DNA of 64,000 nt from Dactylellina haptotyla (lineage: Eukaryota; Ascomycota; Orbiliomycetes; Orbiliales; Orbiliaceae): positions 2,852,001-2,916,000 of the forward strand of contig CM062381.1 in the NCBI GenBank assembly GCA_031310005.1, read 5' to 3'. The notes under the pieces are model-generated. The model was not told where the DNA came from and did not search any database. It was given only the letters and a program-made list of their open reading frames with translations. Numbering within the stretch: position 1 is the stretch's first letter; every line of letters begins with the position of its first letter. Shown one piece after another: positions 4,079 to 13,856 of this stretch. The position numbers and the translations under genes were made by a program.

Positions 4079-5928
4079 TTAACGGATTTCAATGACCCTC
4101 GAAGAAGTATCTCCCTTCTCCCCATTCATTATACCATAGATGAATGTAAAGCCTCTGATCACGAATTTACAATCCTCCACCGGTCTCATAACATGTGGGT
4201 ATGTGCTTCCAAGTGGGACTACGACAACATCTCCAATTTGTGAAGTCGAGACACAGCAGCCCATCAAACCAGTGTCGGTGATCAAGAAGCTTGCCTCTGG
4301 ATATGTGAAATCCCAAACTGGCTTCCCAAATAGAAGCCCGTCTGCCACAGCGGCTTCTTCAGCCATGTCTCCAGGCACATACTTCTGGAAATCTTCCTCT
4401 TCCAAGACTATTTTCAGGTACGCAACAAACCGATGAAGCAACAATACCTCAGCAGCAGGAAGACTCGTCTCGTTCAATCCGAAAGAAAATGTGGTTGCTG
4501 CAGCATTGAGGGTCTCCCTATCGAACGGTGTAGATAAGGACAGAGTTTCTTCTATCATACCGAGCATCTCTTTCCAAACAATTTTGAGCTCCGCCTGTCC
4601 CTCTTCTGAGGTCAATTTGGTAGTACCAAAGTACGTCTCCCAGTGAGGATGCACGGCTTTGATGGTACCTACAATGAATCCGTCAATTGATAAAACGTTC
4701 TCATTCTTATCAATGCTCCAGACCGCTTTCGTATCGCCCGCTGGTTTCCATGGAAGCCGATTCCCAAACCGGAACGGATTCCTAAACATCATTCCTACGT
4801 TCCACGCTGGGATCCACGAAGGTACCTCGATACCAGTCACATACAGCAAAACGTCTGTATTCTCAAAATTAACCAAAGCAGCTTCAACTGAGTCTCTGTA
4901 TACTTCCAGGGTCGTTTTATCGTAGTCTGGGGTCAGAAGTTCGGCACCCTTGGTAAACTGCATCAAACCCCTAAGACCGTAGATGATATCCCGGGGATCC
5001 AAACAACCATAGTTCGAAGCCAAGTACAACATCGTCAGCCAATTGTCAGGCCTTTTAAGCTCAGTCGTGGTAGCAGCCCACCAGACGTTGGTCTTGGTGA
5101 ACCCCAAGCGTCTCGAAAAGTCCGTCTCCATGATGATATACCCCGCGACAAGCTCCACTAGATCCCATTGAAGGGTTTCGTAGCCACAATGTGCGGTCCT
5201 GTTACGATTGGCATTTACTTCTTGGATGACCCATACTCGAGTAAAATATTGGATCGAGTAGAACCATCTGAGCAAGCTCCAAAGTTCATCCGAGCTGAAC
5301 TCTGTTTTGTCCGGGTCGGGGAGGGTCTTCCGGTGCTTAAAGACGTATTCCGTCATGTTGTTCATGTCTTTGAGGTCGTCGACGTTGAGATTGAGTTCTT
5401 TACAGAGAAAGTCGGAAACTGTCTTGACGGCAGCCATTGCCGGACCGGCTTTGCGGTCGTCCGTGTCGTGGCCCAACCACGAGAGAACCCATTGAGCATT
5501 TTCATAGATCCTTTTCATTTGACCAATCTGTTTACCTTTCTCAACATTGTGTTTTTGGTCGATACTAAATAGTTTTATTATCAGGGCCATTTTCTAGAGG
5601 ACTTCTTATATCAGGTGACATACCAGATAATATCTGCCCACAAAAAGCGGGGTCTATCAGTGTAACGGAGATGATTGATTGCACCGTGCAGACTTCGTGT
5701 AACCTCCAATCTCTTTCCGTCAACAAAGACTGGTTCTTTAAGAGCCGCATCTCCCCAGACGTACGAAATAGCCTCGTAGGGCAGTGGTTCTTCCCAGTTA
5801 GTAACATGAAGTTTGCAATATATAGGAGTATCCTTCTCTCCTGGGAGAATTTCCGCTACCCTGAATGCTGTTTCTTCTGGCAAACGTACAAAGACGTAAT
5901 CTTCCTCAGTGATATCGAGCAGATCCAT
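4079..5928 (-). CDS. HET-domain (heterokaryon incompatibility) protein
   Basis: Two exons, 5928-5624 and 5564-4079, encode 596 residues; the 59 bp intron (GTATGT...TTTAG) splits the conserved CIDQ motif. Upstream in-frame sequence lacks another ATG, so the start at 5928 (MDLLDITEEDYVF) is preferred. The N-terminal HET domain is clear: PYEAISYVWGD, then SLHGAINHLRY, then RPRFLWADIICIDQ, and finally QIGQMKRIYENAQWVLSWLG at about residues 40-150. The rest is a long variable C-terminal region with no domain I recognise, as is usual for this family. HET proteins trigger programmed cell death in vegetative incompatibility and perhaps antimicrobial defence, usually on activation by a partner sensor. 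The gene converges with the LMBD1-like gene and lies one gene away from the RyR-domain cluster. Its trigger cannot be read from sequence. Confidence 0.92.
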
Positions 5929-6452
5929 TCTTGTTTGAGAAACTCGTGAATAAGATGTTTTAAACACAGAAACGTTCAAAACTAAAATCTAAAATTCGGT
6001 AATTATAAATTTCCTAATATTTTTCGATAGCTGAAAGATAGTATTTAAACAATCGAACCAAAGATATCGGGTTTACATTGGGACTATCATTGAGATAAAA
6101 AAGGAAAACCAGGCTGAAATAAATCGGTATCGATCTCGGCAGAATACGGTAGTTCGTCGCCTCCCCACCATCAGAACACTCGGTCTAGGTGAGGCTCATA
6201 CCATGCGAATGCATGTTCCACTTTAGAGTACTGTGCACTCTTTCGGACGGGAGCTAGTGAAGGATTAACCGTGTGACCTTCGCCTCGCCGCGATGCCGCA
6301 GCCGTTGTGTCAGCTCTATCGACAACCCCGCTCGAGTTTAGCCCCGCTGTTCCCCCCAAAAAGACGATTCCGCAATTGCGAGCCGTCGACAACTCATTTT
6401 CTCAATCAAGAGAAAATAAAAATAAAACTTCACAGTATAAGTACTACGGTAG
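5929..6452. promoter_or_regulatory. Divergent intergenic region, HET gene / NIF3-like gene
   Basis: This stretch of 524 bp lies between two outward-facing start codons. It is AT-rich near the HET gene (AATTATAAATTTCCTAATAT, around 5999-6018) and contains a degenerate TATA-like stretch. No exon is visible. The minus-strand frame at 6171-6392 has no protein-like character. Confidence 0.4.
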
Positions 6453-7101
6453 ATGCATTTTCTAAAGCAGTTGGTTTTAGGTAAAGCCCCTCGTCACATC
6501 TTCCTGCGCCCATATTGTTATCATCATCAATATTTGCGAACCTATCAATTTAAATCTACTGCAACAGCCGCCGTTATGTCTACCAATACCACAACTACAA
6601 GCACCGCCCAGCGCTACAAGCTCATCTATTTTGTGCCACTTGAAAACCTCGACGCTACCAAAGATGCTATCTTTGCTGCCGGGGCGGGGCGATATCCTGG
6701 ACCTGGAAATTACACCGAATGCGCTTGGGTCGCTATTGGTACTGGTCAGTTCCGTCCAGGTGATGCTGCGAATCCTCACCTTGGGGAGGTAGGCAAACTT
6801 GAGAAAGTGGAAGAGGCGAGAGTTGAGACCCTCATTGTTGGTGAGGATGTTGCGCGCAAAGTTGTCGAGGCGTTAAAGAAGTAAGTCTTGTTCTTATAAT
6901 GTGATAAAACGCAGAAGTGAATCCTGAATAAGTCATTTTTTAACTTGGAAAATGACCATTTCACTGTCCCTGGAGGTTCTTCACAATTGATTTGCGCCTT
7001 GAATATATCCGCCTTACAGAAAATCACTAACAAATCCTGTTACTAGGGCTCACCCATATGAAGAGGCGGCATATGATATCATCAAAGTGGAGGATTTTTA
7101 A
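6453..7101 (+). CDS. NIF3/YqfO-like small protein (PII-like fold)
   Basis: Two exons, 6453-6880 and 7047-7101, join through an intron GTAAGT...CTAG to encode 160 residues. The core reads YKLIYFVPLENLDATKDAIF, then GAGRYPGPGNYTECAW, GTGQFRPGDAANPHLG and, across the intron, ALKKAHPYEEAAYDIIKVED. This order is typical of the short fungal homologues of the PII-like insert of NIF3/YqfO proteins. A second ATG at 6576 (MSTNTTTTST) starts exactly at the conserved part. The 41 extra residues from the first ATG are basic, poor in acids and rich in Arg, His and Tyr, so they may be a mitochondrial presequence, with the two starts giving two locations. Biochemical function is not established for this short family; a metal- or nucleotide-linked role is only suggested by the fold. 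Confidence 0.85.
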
Positions 7102-7747: not shown

Positions 7748-7837
7748 ATGGCGTCAACGATTTCTCTCCTTTACCGTATGCAGGACCGCAACTATGGATC
7801 CAACCAATATCATCCTAGCTGGAGATGCTCCAGTTGA
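7748..7837 (+). other. Upstream ORF overlapping the start of the large RyR-domain gene
   Basis: An ATG at 7748 opens a 29-codon frame in another phase, which ends with TGA at 7835-7837, past the main ATG at 7794. If the transcript begins upstream of 7748, ribosomes starting here would read through the main start, so it could hold translation down. It could also be an artefact of an unseen transcript start between 7748 and 7794 or of a small leader intron. Confidence 0.35.
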
Positions 7838-10328
7838 CGTTTTAATATACCCGGGTCTCCCGGATGAAAACTCTCATAAAAAGCATATGCTGCAAACCTG
7901 CCGACAAAGGGGTGGCATTAATCTTATATCACGCTTCGTTCGCCATGTAGCTGGCGACTATGGTCTCAGGGTCCACGAACCGTTGAACAAGGGCCCAGAG
8001 AATATCCGTCAGGAATTCGTTAGTTCGATTCTCGAATTCGAAATTCGTGACGAGGCAAACCCGACCGCGTTTTTTTCTCTAAAATTAAATCGAAGACAGC
8101 GCTTAGACTACCAGCCTCTGTTCCAACTGCCAGCGCCCTATATCGCCTATGGCAAAAGAGATACGGTTGTTATCCAAGACACTGAGGGTTCGTTCAGTAA
8201 CGTTGACAATGCTGTCAATTTTCTACGTAACACTCACCCCGGCCTTTTGGTCTATCATATGACTCGGCCGTTAGCATCTGGCGCTATTTGGGACACTATT
8301 CGAAATGGGATTTATACAGAGAGTGGGATACAGGATCCCGACAAGTTAGTTGTCATAGTTAGCGCCAACGACCTCCGCGCCGAAGGAATACAGCTATCAC
8401 ACGGTCTATCTTGGGAAAAGACCTGCGAAGACTTTGTCGAACAACTCGGATCTGTTGGAAGACTAGTCAGCTTGGTAACATGCGCACATCTCATTGTTAA
8501 CTTCGGCTGCGACGGGGTCATATATCACCGTGGAGGGCACCTCAACCAACCGATATTATGCTTCGATCCAAGGGGTACCGAAGGCGAATTTGTGAGGCAA
8601 AATATGGGTGACGTTCCTGGGATCACCGAAGCCTTTATCGCAGGCATGGTTACTAGTCTGGATGGCTCAGCCAAAAACCTCGAAGAATGTATCGAACTTG
8701 GCTTCTTATCGGCGAGAAGACTAGCCGCAACAGGTCTCTCATTAGGTCTGAATCCTTCTGATAAGCCTGAGCACTCTATTCACACCATTATGGGGCGGCC
8801 TTCTAGAACCGAGAGTCCAATATTCAAATTATTGATTCCTTCGGATGTCATTGGTAGCGGGGCCGATCAGTACTGGTCTATTCTCGATCGCATTGTCGGT
8901 GACCCAGCTGAAGTCGCAAGGGACATTGTAAAGAACGGAATAAGCTCTTCCAATTCAAATGGTATTCCGATAGCCCAATTCGGGCGCCTCGTTCTGGTTG
9001 ACCGTAACGAGATCGAGTCTTTTAGAATAGTCTCTAACGTTCTGAGAGACTACATCGACGTTCCACAAAACAAACCCGTTAGTATAGCATTATTTGGACC
9101 GAAAGGATCAGGTAGATCATATGCCGCTCTCGAATTAGGCACCGCATTATTGAGCGGCCAAAGCGTTTCCCAGTTTCGAATGGATCTTACGCAAGCCGCG
9201 ACTCCAGCTGATCTAGTTCCTATCTTTCATTCCATCAGAGACAGCAATCTCGAGGGAAGATTCCCAATAGTCTATATAAATGGGTTTGATACCGTGGTTC
9301 CCGGAACGCAACTTATGTGGTTATTCCACTTGTTGACACCAATGCTCCATGGTCGTTTCCTTGATAACGGGGTAAGTCGGCCAATTGGAAGGGCAATCTT
9401 CTTTCTGGGATCTCTGGATTTCAAGACCTATCAGAAATTTCGAAATCAGGTTGGCGGAGGAAGAGGCCTGCCTCCAGCTCGGTTCGAAGAGTTCGTTGGA
9501 TGTCTTCATGGCTATGTCAACATGCTTGGTCCTGATTGTGTAGGCGAGCACGACCGATTATACCCCGTTCGTCGAGCGGTTATCGTCAGAGAACTTCTTG
9601 AAGTACGAGAACCGAAACTAAAGGTCGACGGAAAGATATCCATTGATGAGAATGTACTAGATGTATTATTATTGGTGCCGTTTTATAGACAAGGCATTAG
9701 ATCTCTGAAGGCAATAATCGCCATGAGCAGACTGAATGGATGTCGTCACTTTGAACGAGCAGCGCTTCCACCAGCCAGCCAACTGGACTTACATGTCGAC
9801 CACAAAAGTTTTATACGATACCTCGATGGACATGTCTTACCCGAAGCTATTCGAGAACACTTAGCTGATAAAATCCACACTACGTATTTACAGAAGCGAT
9901 TCTCCATGGGAATGAGCGAAGAAGATCGAAAACGACCAGCTCACCAGCCATGGAGTCAGCTACCAGAAGAATTTAGAGAATCAGCCAGAGCCCACGCAGA
10001 CGATATACCCCGGAAACTACGTTTGATCTCTTGTTTCCTGGCGGAACAACAGGACCACATGCACCGTGAACCTATCACAAGCTTTACCCCTCAAGAGCAG
10101 GATATATTGGCCGAAAATGAACATGACAGGTGGAATGCAGAGCGATTGCAGAAACAGTGGTCAAAGTCATCAGGCGTTGCGCCTTCTAGTGCTCGCGCGA
10201 GCTCCTTTCTAGTAGCTTGGAACGATCTTCCGGCGGAATGGCAGGATGTAGATAGAGTACTTGTTGCTTCGTATCCAAGGATACTACCAGATGATTATAA
10301 GATATATCGGATGGGGAGTGTTGGCTAG
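7794..10328 (+). CDS. Multidomain protein: sugar-kinase-like N-terminus, P-loop NTPase-like centre, C-terminal RyR domain
   Basis: A single uninterrupted frame of 844 codons starts at ATG 7794. The C-terminal 125 residues (about 715-840) match the RyR domain: PWSQLPEEFRESARAHADDI, PRKLRLISCF, then NEHDRWNAERLQKQW, and a closing DLPAEWQDVDR...YKIYRMG half. At about residue 435 IALFGPKGSGRSYAALELG is a Walker A P-loop (GPKGSGRS), followed by hydrophobic strands with acidic ends (FPIVYINGFD). The N-terminal 300 residues resemble a ribokinase/PfkB-type fold: VVIVSANDLRAEG, HLIVNFGCDGVIYHRGG and a glycine-containing helix region near EAFIAGMVTSL. The usual catalytic GAGD is not obvious, so kinase activity is doubtful. 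The gene converges with the CorA-like gene 238 bp downstream, and a second RyR gene follows beyond that. RyR domains are thought to bind nucleotide-like ligands; sensing with NTPase-driven signalling is inference. Confidence 0.82.
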   Translation: MDPTNIILAGDAPVDVLIYPGLPDENSHKKHMLQTCRQRGGINLISRFVRHVAGDYGLRVHEPLNKGPENIRQEFVSSILEFEIRDEANPTAFFSLKLNRRQRLDYQPLFQLPAPYIAYGKRDTVVIQDTEGSFSNVDNAVNFLRNTHPGLLVYHMTRPLASGAIWDTIRNGIYTESGIQDPDKLVVIVSANDLRAEGIQLSHGLSWEKTCEDFVEQLGSVGRLVSLVTCAHLIVNFGCDGVIYHRGGHLNQPILCFDPRGTEGEFVRQNMGDVPGITEAFIAGMVTSLDGSAKNLEECIELGFLSARRLAATGLSLGLNPSDKPEHSIHTIMGRPSRTESPIFKLLIPSDVIGSGADQYWSILDRIVGDPAEVARDIVKNGISSSNSNGIPIAQFGRLVLVDRNEIESFRIVSNVLRDYIDVPQNKPVSIALFGPKGSGRSYAALELGTALLSGQSVSQFRMDLTQAATPADLVPIFHSIRDSNLEGRFPIVYINGFDTVVPGTQLMWLFHLLTPMLHGRFLDNGVSRPIGRAIFFLGSLDFKTYQKFRNQVGGGRGLPPARFEEFVGCLHGYVNMLGPDCVGEHDRLYPVRRAVIVRELLEVREPKLKVDGKISIDENVLDVLLLVPFYRQGIRSLKAIIAMSRLNGCRHFERAALPPASQLDLHVDHKSFIRYLDGHVLPEAIREHLADKIHTTYLQKRFSMGMSEEDRKRPAHQPWSQLPEEFRESARAHADDIPRKLRLISCFLAEQQDHMHREPITSFTPQEQDILAENEHDRWNAERLQKQWSKSSGVAPSSARASSFLVAWNDLPAEWQDVDRVLVASYPRILPDDYKIYRMGSVG

Positions 10329-10566
10329 GACTGTAGTAGATGGAGATTCCATCAGCGTACCAATTACCTTATATTAGGACCCAAACAATGTTTTATCAAC
10401 TGTATTTATATTTTTTTTCCCCGGCGTTTATTATAGATAGATAACCAATGCGCAATGCTCTAATATACAATTATCGCTAGTAAACAAGACAACCCGATCC
10501 TCGTAAAGTCATATTCCAATATATAATTCATTAAAGTAATTTCAAACTCTAGAAGTAAGCCCTATA

Positions 10567-12199
10567 TCAGAGAATTTTTATTGCTATTCTCTTCTTATAA
10601 TCTCTTTCGCTCCTAATTGTCCAAATAATCCACAAAATCATAACTGTTAGAGTTAATGGAACTGCTATGGCGAAGTACATCCAGATGTGCCTCGATACCA
10701 CAATAGACCCATCAGACTCCCAGTTGAACATCGACATACTAAAGACAGCCTGTGGAGCCAAAGTCAGTACATCATTTATAGAGAAATAATTTTTAAAAAG
10801 TGGGTACATACAGCAACAAAGGTGCCTGGTAGAAATACCAATGTGATGATTGCTATCGTTCGCATAAATGAACTGTCCTTTCGAGCCGCTGTTGCCGCAA
10901 ACTCGGAGTTCTTAGCGATCATTATACTAATTTGACTGTCAATCTAGAATTTTGTTAGATTCAGGACTTGGTAGTTACATTTATAGATTTGTGGGAAATC
11001 TACTTACCATCCCATGTTGAAACTTAATCTTTCCTGGTATCGTATCGAGGTCATATCTCAACGTGCCAGATAGATCGTTTTGCGTCTGCACATGTTGTCG
11101 TTGCTTCCGAGAATAAGTAGCCACATCATCCCGGCTAGCCCGTCTCTCGATAACCTGGAAGCATTGAAGAAGTTTCGTAGCAAGATCTTGCTCAAATGTC
11201 CACCTTCTCTGAAGCACTAGGTGTCTTTTCTCCAGCTTAAACAACTCCCTTCTCATCTCTTCCAAACTTTTCGCCAACCCATTGGTTAGCTTATCATCCT
11301 GGGCGAGTATATCTTCGGCAAGGGTATTGATTTTGTCTCTCGTTTCTTGAACCTGCCACTGGAGAAGACAGCTGGGGAGGAACATAAAGTCTGGCGCTAC
11401 TGGGGGGTGAAAGTCAGACGGGAAGCTAGTGTTGCATAGTAGTCGTTCGATATCAATGCCTTCATCCGCAAATATAAGACATGCCCAGTCCGCATCAGCT
11501 TTCACACGGACATTGTTTAATTCCGTCAGTGCGAAACTAAAATACGGTAAATTATCCTTGGGTGTTTGGCTTATGAAACCTATGGAATTACATGATCAGT
11601 AAACACAGTCAAGACAGTATTACCATGGCTAGCAGCTTACTCGTCGCAGTATCGGTGTCTACAACTGTAGACCCGGTAGTCCCTTTCTCGACAAAATAGA
11701 TAAATTCGTCTCCAATCCAATGCGATTCTTTCGCTGTATTTATGATGCCATATTGCCGAAGTAGGTGGTGTCTATCTGCAACACTCGATTGAACAAGCCT
11801 AATTTCGTGAGTCGGATGAATACTAGATAGCTAAGAAGCTAGAAATTACGAGGGAGGGCATCATACAGTATTCTAAATCTGTTCTTTTCCATATTTGTCC
11901 GTCTATCTCTCTGGATAGCGAATCAAAGATCCACATTAGCACGACCATTTAGTCTAGGTTCTAAGGATTAGCAAATATAACATACCGCTGGCACTGTCTT
12001 AATAAAATCCTTGGCCCCCTCTTCGGACATTCTTTCCCAATTAATCGGGCCTCTGATTTTCCATTGTGCTCGCTAAGAAATAATTAACACTGCATCTATC
12101 ACTTAGGGATTCGAGCTCCAGTATTACCTCTATCACAGTAGCACTCGTTACAAAGCCTTTGTATGTGACGGGCCCACTCATTATGGGCAATAACATCAT
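10567..12199 (-). CDS. Fungal CorA-like two-helix membrane protein
   Basis: Seven exons can be joined in frame: 12199-12128, 12072-11986, 11910-11867, 11822-11641, 11579-11008, 10943-10812 and 10749-10567, giving 423 residues. The start could also be the ATG at 12196 or 12181. The small 44-nt third exon and its 44-bp following intron are the least certain part. The C-terminus is diagnostic of fungal CorA-like proteins: a long helical region with heptads (KSLEEMRRELFKLEKRHLVL), then AKNSEFAATAARKDSSFMRT, helix 1 TIAIITLVFLPGTFVAAVFS, a short loop SMSMFNWESDG, and helix 2 MYFAIAVPLTLTVMILWIIW. The GMN signature of true magnesium channels is absent, so ion selectivity is unknown. It lies between two RyR-domain genes, convergent with the first and divergent from the second. 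Family membership is firm; function is not. Confidence 0.8.
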
Positions 12200-13169
12200 A
12201 GTATTACTAACTTTTGAGACACTCAATTCAAGCTTGAATGGGTGATCGATACAAGGATGGTATCCGAAAAAAGCTAAAATCCTAAGTACTGGCGGCCAGG
12301 TTTCTTAAGCGCTAATTCCGCAATGCCGTCAGGTTGTTACATTGCACAATGGGTTTCGAAGCTTTGGCCTGGATTCAGCTGGGTTTTGGTTGGATTGTGC
12401 TATCTTTCGCTGTTACCGTGCGTTAAAGTTCGCGAAGGGCTAAGGAATAACCAGAATAGGTTTAATCATCCTGTGCTTGAGTGTGAGGTTTACTTATAAT
12501 GGCTGCTCATTCCCTTCAGCCTCGTTCGTGCAGCGTTTGCCGCCTGGGGGGGTCTCATGTGCGTTTGATCCTTCAGCACAGCGGGGCGGCAATGTCCCTG
12601 CACACAAAAGCAGGATTACGACCATCCCGCTGCGGCTTACATACAGAAAAATAATTATTTTACGGTCAAAGAGGAATGCATGTCCAAGTTGAGAAATCTA
12701 GAGACTATCGTTATTATGACAGTTAACTGCGCCCTCACAAGTGCAAGTTTTCAGTTGCGGCCGACGTGAATCCGAATTATTACTAGAACCTACACTCGAG
12801 ATTGATATGCTTCTAGACCAAAATGGCGCGAGAAGAGCAATACAGGAAGGAGCTTAATCTAGTTCCGCGGCGAAAGCTATTGGTGCCATTCTCGTTTGGT
12901 TCCAAGGCATACCTCAAGACAAACACAGGCACGGTTCGCTCCTTAGCGCCCGGTATCCTCGCCTGGATCCATAGAGCTCATTGTTGGGTCCGAAGTTCTA
13001 CCATTTCGCACGCCATGTCCAAGATATCATCTACAGTGCCGAAATATTTAAGCCCGGATAAACCCCATCTTTTGCCCCTCTGTAGCTCTCAACATCACCG
13101 TACTTGCAATTCACGGGAGTTATAAGAACCAAATCCAACTTCAAGATCACAGAAAATACCATAGAAGTC
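12200..13169. promoter_or_regulatory. Divergent intergenic region, CorA-like gene / small RyR gene
   Basis: This stretch of 970 bp lies between outward-facing starts. A plus-strand frame at 12823-13125 starts with ATG (MAREEQYRKELNLVPRR) and has a protein-like first 20 residues, but the remainder is low-information and I find no clear splice to the RyR gene. It is left as part of the leader or promoter. Confidence 0.4.
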
Positions 13170-13856
13170 ATGCCGCCATCTGCTACTGCTCCTTCGGATC
13201 TTCCTAAGGTCAATCCTGGTGGCCAACTGCAGGCTGATTCTGCACCGCCGTCGCATAGCAGCCTTCCTGCATCTTCTGCCAACAACAGCAGCAGTACGTA
13301 TACCCCAAACCATGACATCGATTCCACCCCGCCACTGGACCCGAGCATCCGAGAAGCGGTCTCCGAAGAACTCTACAAAAGATACAAACAATCCCGTCGA
13401 GATATGGCAGAGAAAGACGAGACCGAAAAAGCCAAACTGAAAGAAAAAGACGCCTCCCTTCAAGACGGTTGGGATCAACTACCCGATCATCTGAAAGCGT
13501 CTACTCGCGCGCAGGCGGACGATATCCCCAGAAAACTGCGAATGATCGGGTATTATATGGCAAAAGACGCCGACGCAAAAACAAACGGACACATTTTAGA
13601 AATGTTCAGTGAGGCGGAGTTGGAGTTCCTTGGGGAGGTGGAACATGATAGGTGGGCTGCTGAGAGGATGAAGAGCGGATGGACGTCCTCGGAACAACGG
13701 AATTCGACGACTCAACAGACGCCGTTTTTCGTACCTTACTCTGAGTTGGAGCAGAAATGGAAAGACGTCGATAAAGACATGGTAAAGGGAGTCCCTGAGA
13801 TATTGAAGAAATCCGGGTACAGGATTTACAAGAGGGAAGAAAACAACAAGTTGTGA
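13170..13856 (+). CDS. Small RyR-domain protein
   Basis: A single exon of 228 codons from ATG 13170; the frame is open a little further upstream but has no earlier ATG. Residues 1-75 are Pro/Ser/Ala-rich and look disordered, and a charged helical segment (KYKQSRRDMAEKDETEKAKL-like) leads into the domain. Residues about 103-225 form an RyR domain with both halves: DQLPDHLKASTRAQADDIPR, KLRMIGYYMA, then EVEHDRWAAERMKSGW and YSELEQKWKDVDKDM...GYRIYKRE. It shares the strings QADDIPRKLR/HADDIPRKLR and EHDRWxAER with the C-terminus of the 844-residue protein at 7794-10328, so the two are paralogous domains. There is no enzyme domain, so it may act as a free ligand-binding or competitor subunit; that is inference. 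It converges with TOS1. Confidence 0.85.
   Translation: MPPSATAPSDLPKVNPGGQLQADSAPPSHSSLPASSANNSSSTYTPNHDIDSTPPLDPSIREAVSEELYKRYKQSRRDMAEKDETEKAKLKEKDASLQDGWDQLPDHLKASTRAQADDIPRKLRMIGYYMAKDADAKTNGHILEMFSEAELEFLGEVEHDRWAAERMKSGWTSSEQRNSTTQQTPFFVPYSELEQKWKDVDKDMVKGVPEILKKSGYRIYKREENNKL

Follow-up and report, generated by a model that had tools for sequence, protein, structure and literature searches.

A conserved gene neighbourhood in Dactylellina haptotyla joins tandem RyR modules to a CorA-fold membrane protein: a candidate nucleotide-sensing module

The 64,000-nucleotide stretch of the Dactylellina haptotyla genome analysed here (the window; assembly GCA_031310005.1, contig CM062381.1, positions 2,852,001 to 2,916,000) carries three consecutive genes, encoding a large protein that ends in an RyR domain (BIG), a two-helix CorA-fold membrane protein and a small stand-alone RyR protein (Table 1). 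RyR domains are best known from animal calcium channels. The gene models bear out the arrangement proposed in an earlier, sequence-only reading of the window, with the CorA-like gene converging with BIG and diverging from the small RyR gene, and the motifs singled out there, HADDIPRKLR/QADDIPRKLR and EHDRWxAER, are present in the two RyR proteins. In D. haptotyla CBS 200.50, H072_5131 is 99% identical to BIG and H072_5129 96% identical to the small RyR protein; the CorA-fold model comprises 415 residues, or 409 from a start six residues further on, as in the public protein, and 396 of 409 residues are identical to H072_5130. A scan of the 39.8 Mb genome returned two RyR matches, both at the trio locus, and one CorA-fold gene sits between the two RyR genes so detected.

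Table 1. Positions of the trio, its predicted parts and neighbouring genes in the window, and of related proteins in bacterial loci (positions on the locus named).
Feature	Position	Strand	Remarks
Large RyR gene (BIG)	7794..10328	+	844 aa, one open frame
BIG residues 1-349	7794..8840	+	Predicted ribokinase/PfkB-fold domain; Glu279 at the catalytic Asp place
BIG residues about 385-660	8946..9773	+	Predicted AAA+-like domain; Foldseek matches to ClpB/Skd3; boundaries approximate
BIG first RyR repeat (R1), residues 684-751	9843..10046	+	Tyr698, Arg702; profile E 2.6e-5; modelled as helices and a strand
BIG second RyR repeat (R2), residues 766-839	10089..10310	+	Trp780, Arg784; Pfam RyR; model
CorA-fold two-helix membrane protein gene	10567..12199	-	Seven exons, six GT-AG introns
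CorA-fold gene exons	12199-12128, 12072-11986, 11910-11867, 11798-11641, 11579-11008, 10943-10812, 10749-10567	-	
Stretch between the divergent CorA-fold and small RyR genes	12200..13169		Candidate shared control region, from the gene models
Small RyR gene	13170..13856	+	228 aa, one frame; variable N-terminus, then tandem RyR module
Small RyR R1, about residues 57-130	13338..13559	+	Profile E 6.5e-5; boundaries approximate
Small RyR R2, about residues 147-222	13608..13835	+	Trp162; Pfam RyR 2.7e-15; match to animal RyR
NIF3-like gene between HET gene and trio	6453..6884	+	Match to 2gx8, E 5.8e-16; outside the module
HET-domain gene	4079..5988	-	Two exons
RelA_SpoT-RyR proteins near or beside bacterial BIG	L011 1724-4420; L012 3448-6021; L048 9895-12429; L049 4193-6787		

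The trio is a real, conserved gene neighbourhood. Gene order was read from locus tags and contig sizes in protein searches, in which one or two tags are visible per 90% cluster and 120 of 192 BIG matches were listed. The tags are consecutive in all five Orbiliaceae genomes with the three of them visible (H072_5129/5130/5131, TWF694_008488/8489/8490, DRE_06040/06041/06042, TWF730_004800/4801/4802 and TWF281_007212/7213/7214), and those of BIG and the small RyR protein are two apart in 7/7 genomes, namely these five and the ones with TWF718_008146/8148 and TWF751_004409/4407; placement in the Orbiliaceae was checked for Dactylellina, Drechslerella and Orbilia, and we take it to hold for the other genera. 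A CorA search with a three-row alignment, whose window row differed from the final model over about a dozen residues, returned 31 proteins, 17 of them strong (at least 269 bits) before a drop to 96 bits. The CorA tag adjoins that of BIG in 8 of the 17, from the five trio genomes and from Apiosordaria (407510/407511), Phialemonium (192/193) and Chlorociboria (g2586/g2585). Two more share one short contig with BIG (Glonium, 11,559 bases; a Joint Genome Institute contig, 10,301) and three share only a large contig on which the tags are non-consecutive (Dactylonectria, Hyaloscypha and Rhizodiscina), the same contig being assumed from equal contig sizes; the remaining four, namely Exophiala spinifera, Trichoglossum and two entries of Orbilia oligospora from strains for which no BIG tag is visible, have no assignable BIG linkage. 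Where the ascomycete partner of BIG could be resolved, it is a two-helix CorA protein.

In two further genomes, Neonectria ditissima and Cercophora samala, CorA and BIG form one predicted protein, although these may be merged neighbouring genes rather than true fusions, because there is an internal Met ahead of the BIG portion. CorA and BIG distances, computed without species-tree control, agree over 15 pairs (Mantel r 0.881, a value reached in none of 10,000 permutations) and still do so over the nine pairs that remain once six rows from or near the Orbiliaceae are removed (r 0.823, again reached in none of 10,000). The 15 CorA-linked BIG rows are spread across a 116-row tree with 10 changes (0 of 500 shuffles as low), in which a row marked as unlinked is one whose CorA linkage is unresolved and not one shown to lack it. 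Slow rearrangement might keep such neighbours together with no joint function, as would be in keeping with trio cases that all come from one family, with CorA and BIG distances that may track species and with the three pairs on large contigs; this explanation is improbable in view of CorA adjoining or being fused with BIG outside the Orbiliaceae as well, and of the two fused predictions, where CorA comes first and is read in the same direction as BIG, whereas in the window the two genes converge.

The small RyR protein has 15 homologues, 11 of which are named Orbiliaceae entries from ten species. A tree of 75 RyR modules recovered a 13-row small RyR clade, made up of the 11 named entries, one more relative and the window protein, at 100/100, and the fungal BIG RyR rows grouped apart from it at 94/81. 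When the small RyR proteins were forced together with Orbiliaceae BIG, a group named after the tree had been seen, the likelihood fell by 24.6 (approximately unbiased test, p 0.025). The idea of a lone, recent tandem duplicate found in this strain only, raised in the sequence-only reading, was rejected on these results, and the phylogeny identifies the small RyR protein as an old lineage. Small RyR proteins may have arisen more than once, because three stand-alone members (P0133, P0134 and P0135) group with Cercospora and Fulvia BIG rows; holding all small RyR proteins together gave a borderline p 0.050.

Pfam RyR (PF02026) flags a single stretch strongly in each module, with 33.9 bits for whole BIG and 56.8 bits for the small RyR protein at a cut-off of 27.4; in the genome scan alone the BIG match reached 25.2 bits, below that cut-off. 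Profile searches revealed that both window modules are tandem repeat pairs. Using as first-repeat profile the second repeats of bacterial and animal RyR, a first repeat was found directly upstream of the second in 147 of 154 modules (E ≤0.01), whereas none of 138 control stretches gave a match, even with the threshold relaxed to E 1. In the predicted BIG model the pair appears as two units of helices and strand, resembling the layout described for Repeat12 (R12) of the animal ryanodine receptor, where the ATP analogue AMP-PCP or ADP is reported to lie in a cleft with its adenine on Trp880 and its phosphates on Lys884, Arg895 and Arg1018 (PMC12627627). The R1 stacking position is aromatic in 82 of 83 fungal BIG rows, with a basic residue four on, at the place of Lys884, in 74; at the R2 position 82 of 83 rows likewise have an aromatic residue, and Arg follows four residues later in 82. 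Among small RyR rows the Tyr motif was found in 13/15 and EHxRW or EHxRF in 15/15. Arg895, an R1 residue in animals, was compared on R2 only and is Arg in 16/16 small RyR and 100/119 BIG rows, the window BIG not being one of them. Both window modules share tandem repeats, aromatic stacking positions and the basic residue four on with the nucleotide-binding animal R12, which they resemble without its full set of phosphate contacts; they differ from it in standing alone or within a ribokinase/AAA protein and in the absence of the Arg1018 contact. Pairing of BIG with the small RyR protein as the sole route to a clamshell was dropped, because each module carries both repeats.

Ahead of its RyR module, BIG is predicted to fold into a ribokinase-fold domain and an AAA+ domain with degraded motifs. 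The catalytic Asp of the former was located by motif and not by structure, through GAGD, which we take to mark the catalytic Asp of active PfkB kinases; the position holds Glu in the window BIG, Asp in 3/83 fungal rows and Ser in 11/11 bacterial rows. Walker A of the window BIG reads GPKGSGRS, with Arg in place of Lys, and the Walker B Glu, replaced by Gly, is kept in 12/83 fungal and 11/11 bacterial rows. Intact Walker motifs are retained in many of the BIG rows P0098-P0110 and P0119, other fungal rows being decayed.

The CorA fold was assigned from the predicted structure of a 74% identical homologue (P0137) and extends over its whole chain, a feature shared with the CorA/Mrs2/ZntB Mg2+ and Zn2+ channels. 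The trio protein differs from these in having FSMSMF where CorA channels have GMN, which we assume to be the hallmark of CorA Mg2+ channels; GMN is also absent in all the rows of our CorA alignment (A3) that cover the region, 12 of its 17, and in the two fused proteins. Pfam PF01544 gave 18.4 bits for P0136 against a cut-off of 27 and passed it in two of eight scanned proteins (P0147 and P0149), H072_5130 falling below it. Since it lacks GMN, the trio protein is probably not a selective Mg2+ channel. The absence of GMN also tells against a main rival explanation, housekeeping ion regulation, in which BIG would read the adenine-nucleotide state and tune a CorA-type divalent-cation carrier with no role in conflict. 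This rival draws on the CorA fold of P0137, on the resemblance of the RyR modules to ADP-binding R12 and on the CorA/BIG distance agreement, which fits vertical co-inheritance, and we regard it as unlikely.

The window BIG alone found no match in bacterial genomes, whereas an alignment (A4) of eleven rows out of P0098-P0110, which nest with fungal BIG rows in trees, found 29 loci in GTDB genomes, and a restriction of BIG to fungi was accordingly rejected. With 17 further stretches, and with the loci that seeded our profiles included, 46 bacterial loci were compared. At E 1e-60, three phylum samples contained BIG in 4/400, 9/396 and 7/392 genomes, counts that include four genomes known beforehand to match (G004, G005, G002 and G008). 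The bacterial relatives can be aligned across the length of BIG (the window protein is 30% identical to the one in L008) and RyR lies in the same frame as BIG in 28 of the 46 loci. SLOG-like matches occur in 18 loci, inside BIG in three and directly adjoining it in 14 of the other 15, SLATT-type genes in five and TrkA_N-RyR channels in four; TrkA_N and RyR score above cut-off in all four channels, and the SLATT matches lie under curated cut-offs (best 1.9e-8). One of these features or a second RyR frame is present in 24/46 loci, or 23 without L021, where BIG is split. As judged from such matches, about half of the bacterial loci place BIG beside nucleotide-signal domains or two-helix membrane proteins, and the bacterial relatives lend some independent support to a nucleotide-signal context. 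Three BIG frames (L014, L018 and L019) have a SLOG-like match and no RyR match, as if the two were interchangeable, and L043, L044 and L045 encode 337-residue SLOG-like proteins overlapping BIG, the one in L043 with a low-molecular-weight phosphatase match.

Second RyR genes cluster with BIG in bacteria. In 24 genomes, that is 26 less two added after their RyR pairs had been seen, there are 19 RyR frames other than BIG, of which seven are no more than 10 kb away from it, three are at 10-22 kb on the same contig and nine are elsewhere; without G004 and G005, hand-picked after the pairs were seen, 5/17 lie within 10 kb. The genomes measure at least 1.9 Mb, so chance would put about 1% of RyR frames so near. 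Four loci (L011, L012, L048 and L049) encode proteins with RelA_SpoT and RyR both above cut-off, with a TRPM-type SLOG match under cut-off in three, and these are candidates for a signal synthase sharing the RyR module. The rarity of bacterial BIG and its frequent position beside SLOG-like, SLATT-type or RelA/SpoT genes are unlike housekeeping transport. Among IMG/VR contigs classed as viral we observed a BIG relative (L056 6001-8001, 42% in the best segment) and a weak RyR match (L057 1965-2162).

These bacterial neighbours, some of which are of kinds with a presumed part in antiviral signalling, also bear on a strict conflict or cell-death module, in which an invader or non-self would raise a nucleotide signal and BIG would bind it and open the CorA protein, killing or arresting the compartment. 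Nucleotide-centred conflict systems were reportedly surveyed by Burroughs and Aravind in 2015. The CorA of type III-B CRISPR is described as a SAM-AMP-activated, signal-bound effector (PMC10600005) and SLATT proteins are predicted to control membrane permeability (PMC9503650), both in line with such a module. We nevertheless consider it somewhat unlikely, given that the locus is old and syntenic, that none of 919 window frames matches a SLOG-like, SLATT-type or DUF4062 profile at E 0.01 and that PADLOC, searched at this threshold, matches neither BIG nor the CorA-fold protein nor the small RyR protein. A defence role of the trio is plausible but unproven.

BIG lies near nucleotide-signal or membrane genes in about half of the bacterial loci and has a CorA partner in ascomycetes where the partner is resolved, and the simplest joint reading is a nucleotide sensor governing a membrane protein. 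We tentatively favour, at somewhat less than even confidence, the view that the locus is a conserved module which senses nucleotides and controls a membrane pore of the CorA type. In it, BIG would be sensor and switch: its ribokinase-fold domain, devoid of the catalytic Asp, would bind a nucleoside-like ligand and not phosphorylate it, the decayed AAA+ domain would serve as an oligomerising scaffold, and the tandem RyR module would close around its ligand in the manner of animal R12, the ligand being an adenine nucleotide or a signal derived from one. Ligand-bound BIG would then open or shut the CorA-fold protein, and the small RyR protein of the Orbiliaceae may buffer that ligand or compete for it by binding it too, the switch most likely serving stress or non-self responses that alter membrane permeability. 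The division into sensor, membrane effector and small RyR modulator offered by the sequence-only reading thus stands as the best reading of the anatomy and of the conserved trio, but the defence function suggested with it is not supported.

Several points weigh against the pore-controlling module. No named partner accompanies BIG in 23/46 bacterial loci, some of them on short contigs, and the SLOG label is weak, because the scanned seed proteins (L007 and L008) have no Pfam or NCBIfam match and the best SLOG-like member match, YpsA at 7.6e-5 in L048, is under cut-off. The CorA of the trio was matched in 0 of 2523 bacterial frames, so the link to bacterial membrane partners is one of analogy. 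The Arg1018 phosphate contact is found in 0/16 small RyR and 0/119 BIG rows and is absent in all groups. The agreement of CorA and BIG distances may merely follow the species tree, and most of the 116 BIG tree rows have no tied CorA (15 have one), where poor recall and real absence look alike. What the analysis establishes is the genes, their conserved neighbourhood, the predicted folds, the states of the motifs, the tandem RyR repeats and the bacterial contexts; from these we infer the ligand, the physical contact, the gating, the role of the small RyR protein and the biological purpose.

Compared with known systems, the bacterial ribokinase-fold/AAA/RyR proteins are like BIG across its length, and some of their loci also have adjacent genes for membrane proteins, but the fungal partner has a CorA fold, no SLOG-like or SLATT-type frame accompanies it in the window and the fungal AAA motifs are mostly decayed. 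Like the trio, type III-B CRISPR has the gene of a CorA-family membrane protein next to a module for nucleotide signals (PMC10600005); the sensor of the trio is a different one, and no Cas genes occur among the scanned frames. Oomycete PKDRR proteins provide RyR repeats outside animals, fused to a PKD channel, with no ribokinase or AAA part described in the available portion of the 2020 paper, which there gives the function of the RyR domain as unknown and reports the domain from animals, oomycetes, bacteria, archaea and viruses, without mention of fungi (PMC7399828). None of the papers listed in our literature searches dealt with a fungal RyR/CorA module, and a search by PDB code yielded nothing of relevance. 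The present locus shows fungal RyR modules in a conserved pairing with a CorA-fold membrane protein, and their bacterial relatives lie close to genes for nucleotide signals. Should the module gate a pore, fungi would possess a means of sensing distinct from NLR and HET proteins, and the RyR ligand question would become testable with small soluble proteins. A more far-reaching version, which we judge quite unlikely, derives the trio, as a eukaryotic branch, from a bacterial conflict system built on nucleotide signals; the RyR clamshell would be a general sensor of an alarm signal based on adenine (ATP, ADP-ribose type or RelA/SpoT-type) and in ascomycetes would gate a CorA-derived death or leak pore, with a dedicated small RyR antagonist; if true, it would suggest a source for the RyR domain of animal calcium channels.

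The HET gene was placed next to the trio in the sequence-only reading, but the two are not direct neighbours, as a NIF3-like gene intervenes. That intervening gene tells against an allorecognition cluster with the HET gene as death effector, a very improbable explanation suggested by the 1.8 kb that separate the HET gene from BIG and by the genome scan, in which 8 HET exon matches, corresponding to at least about seven HET genes, were found.

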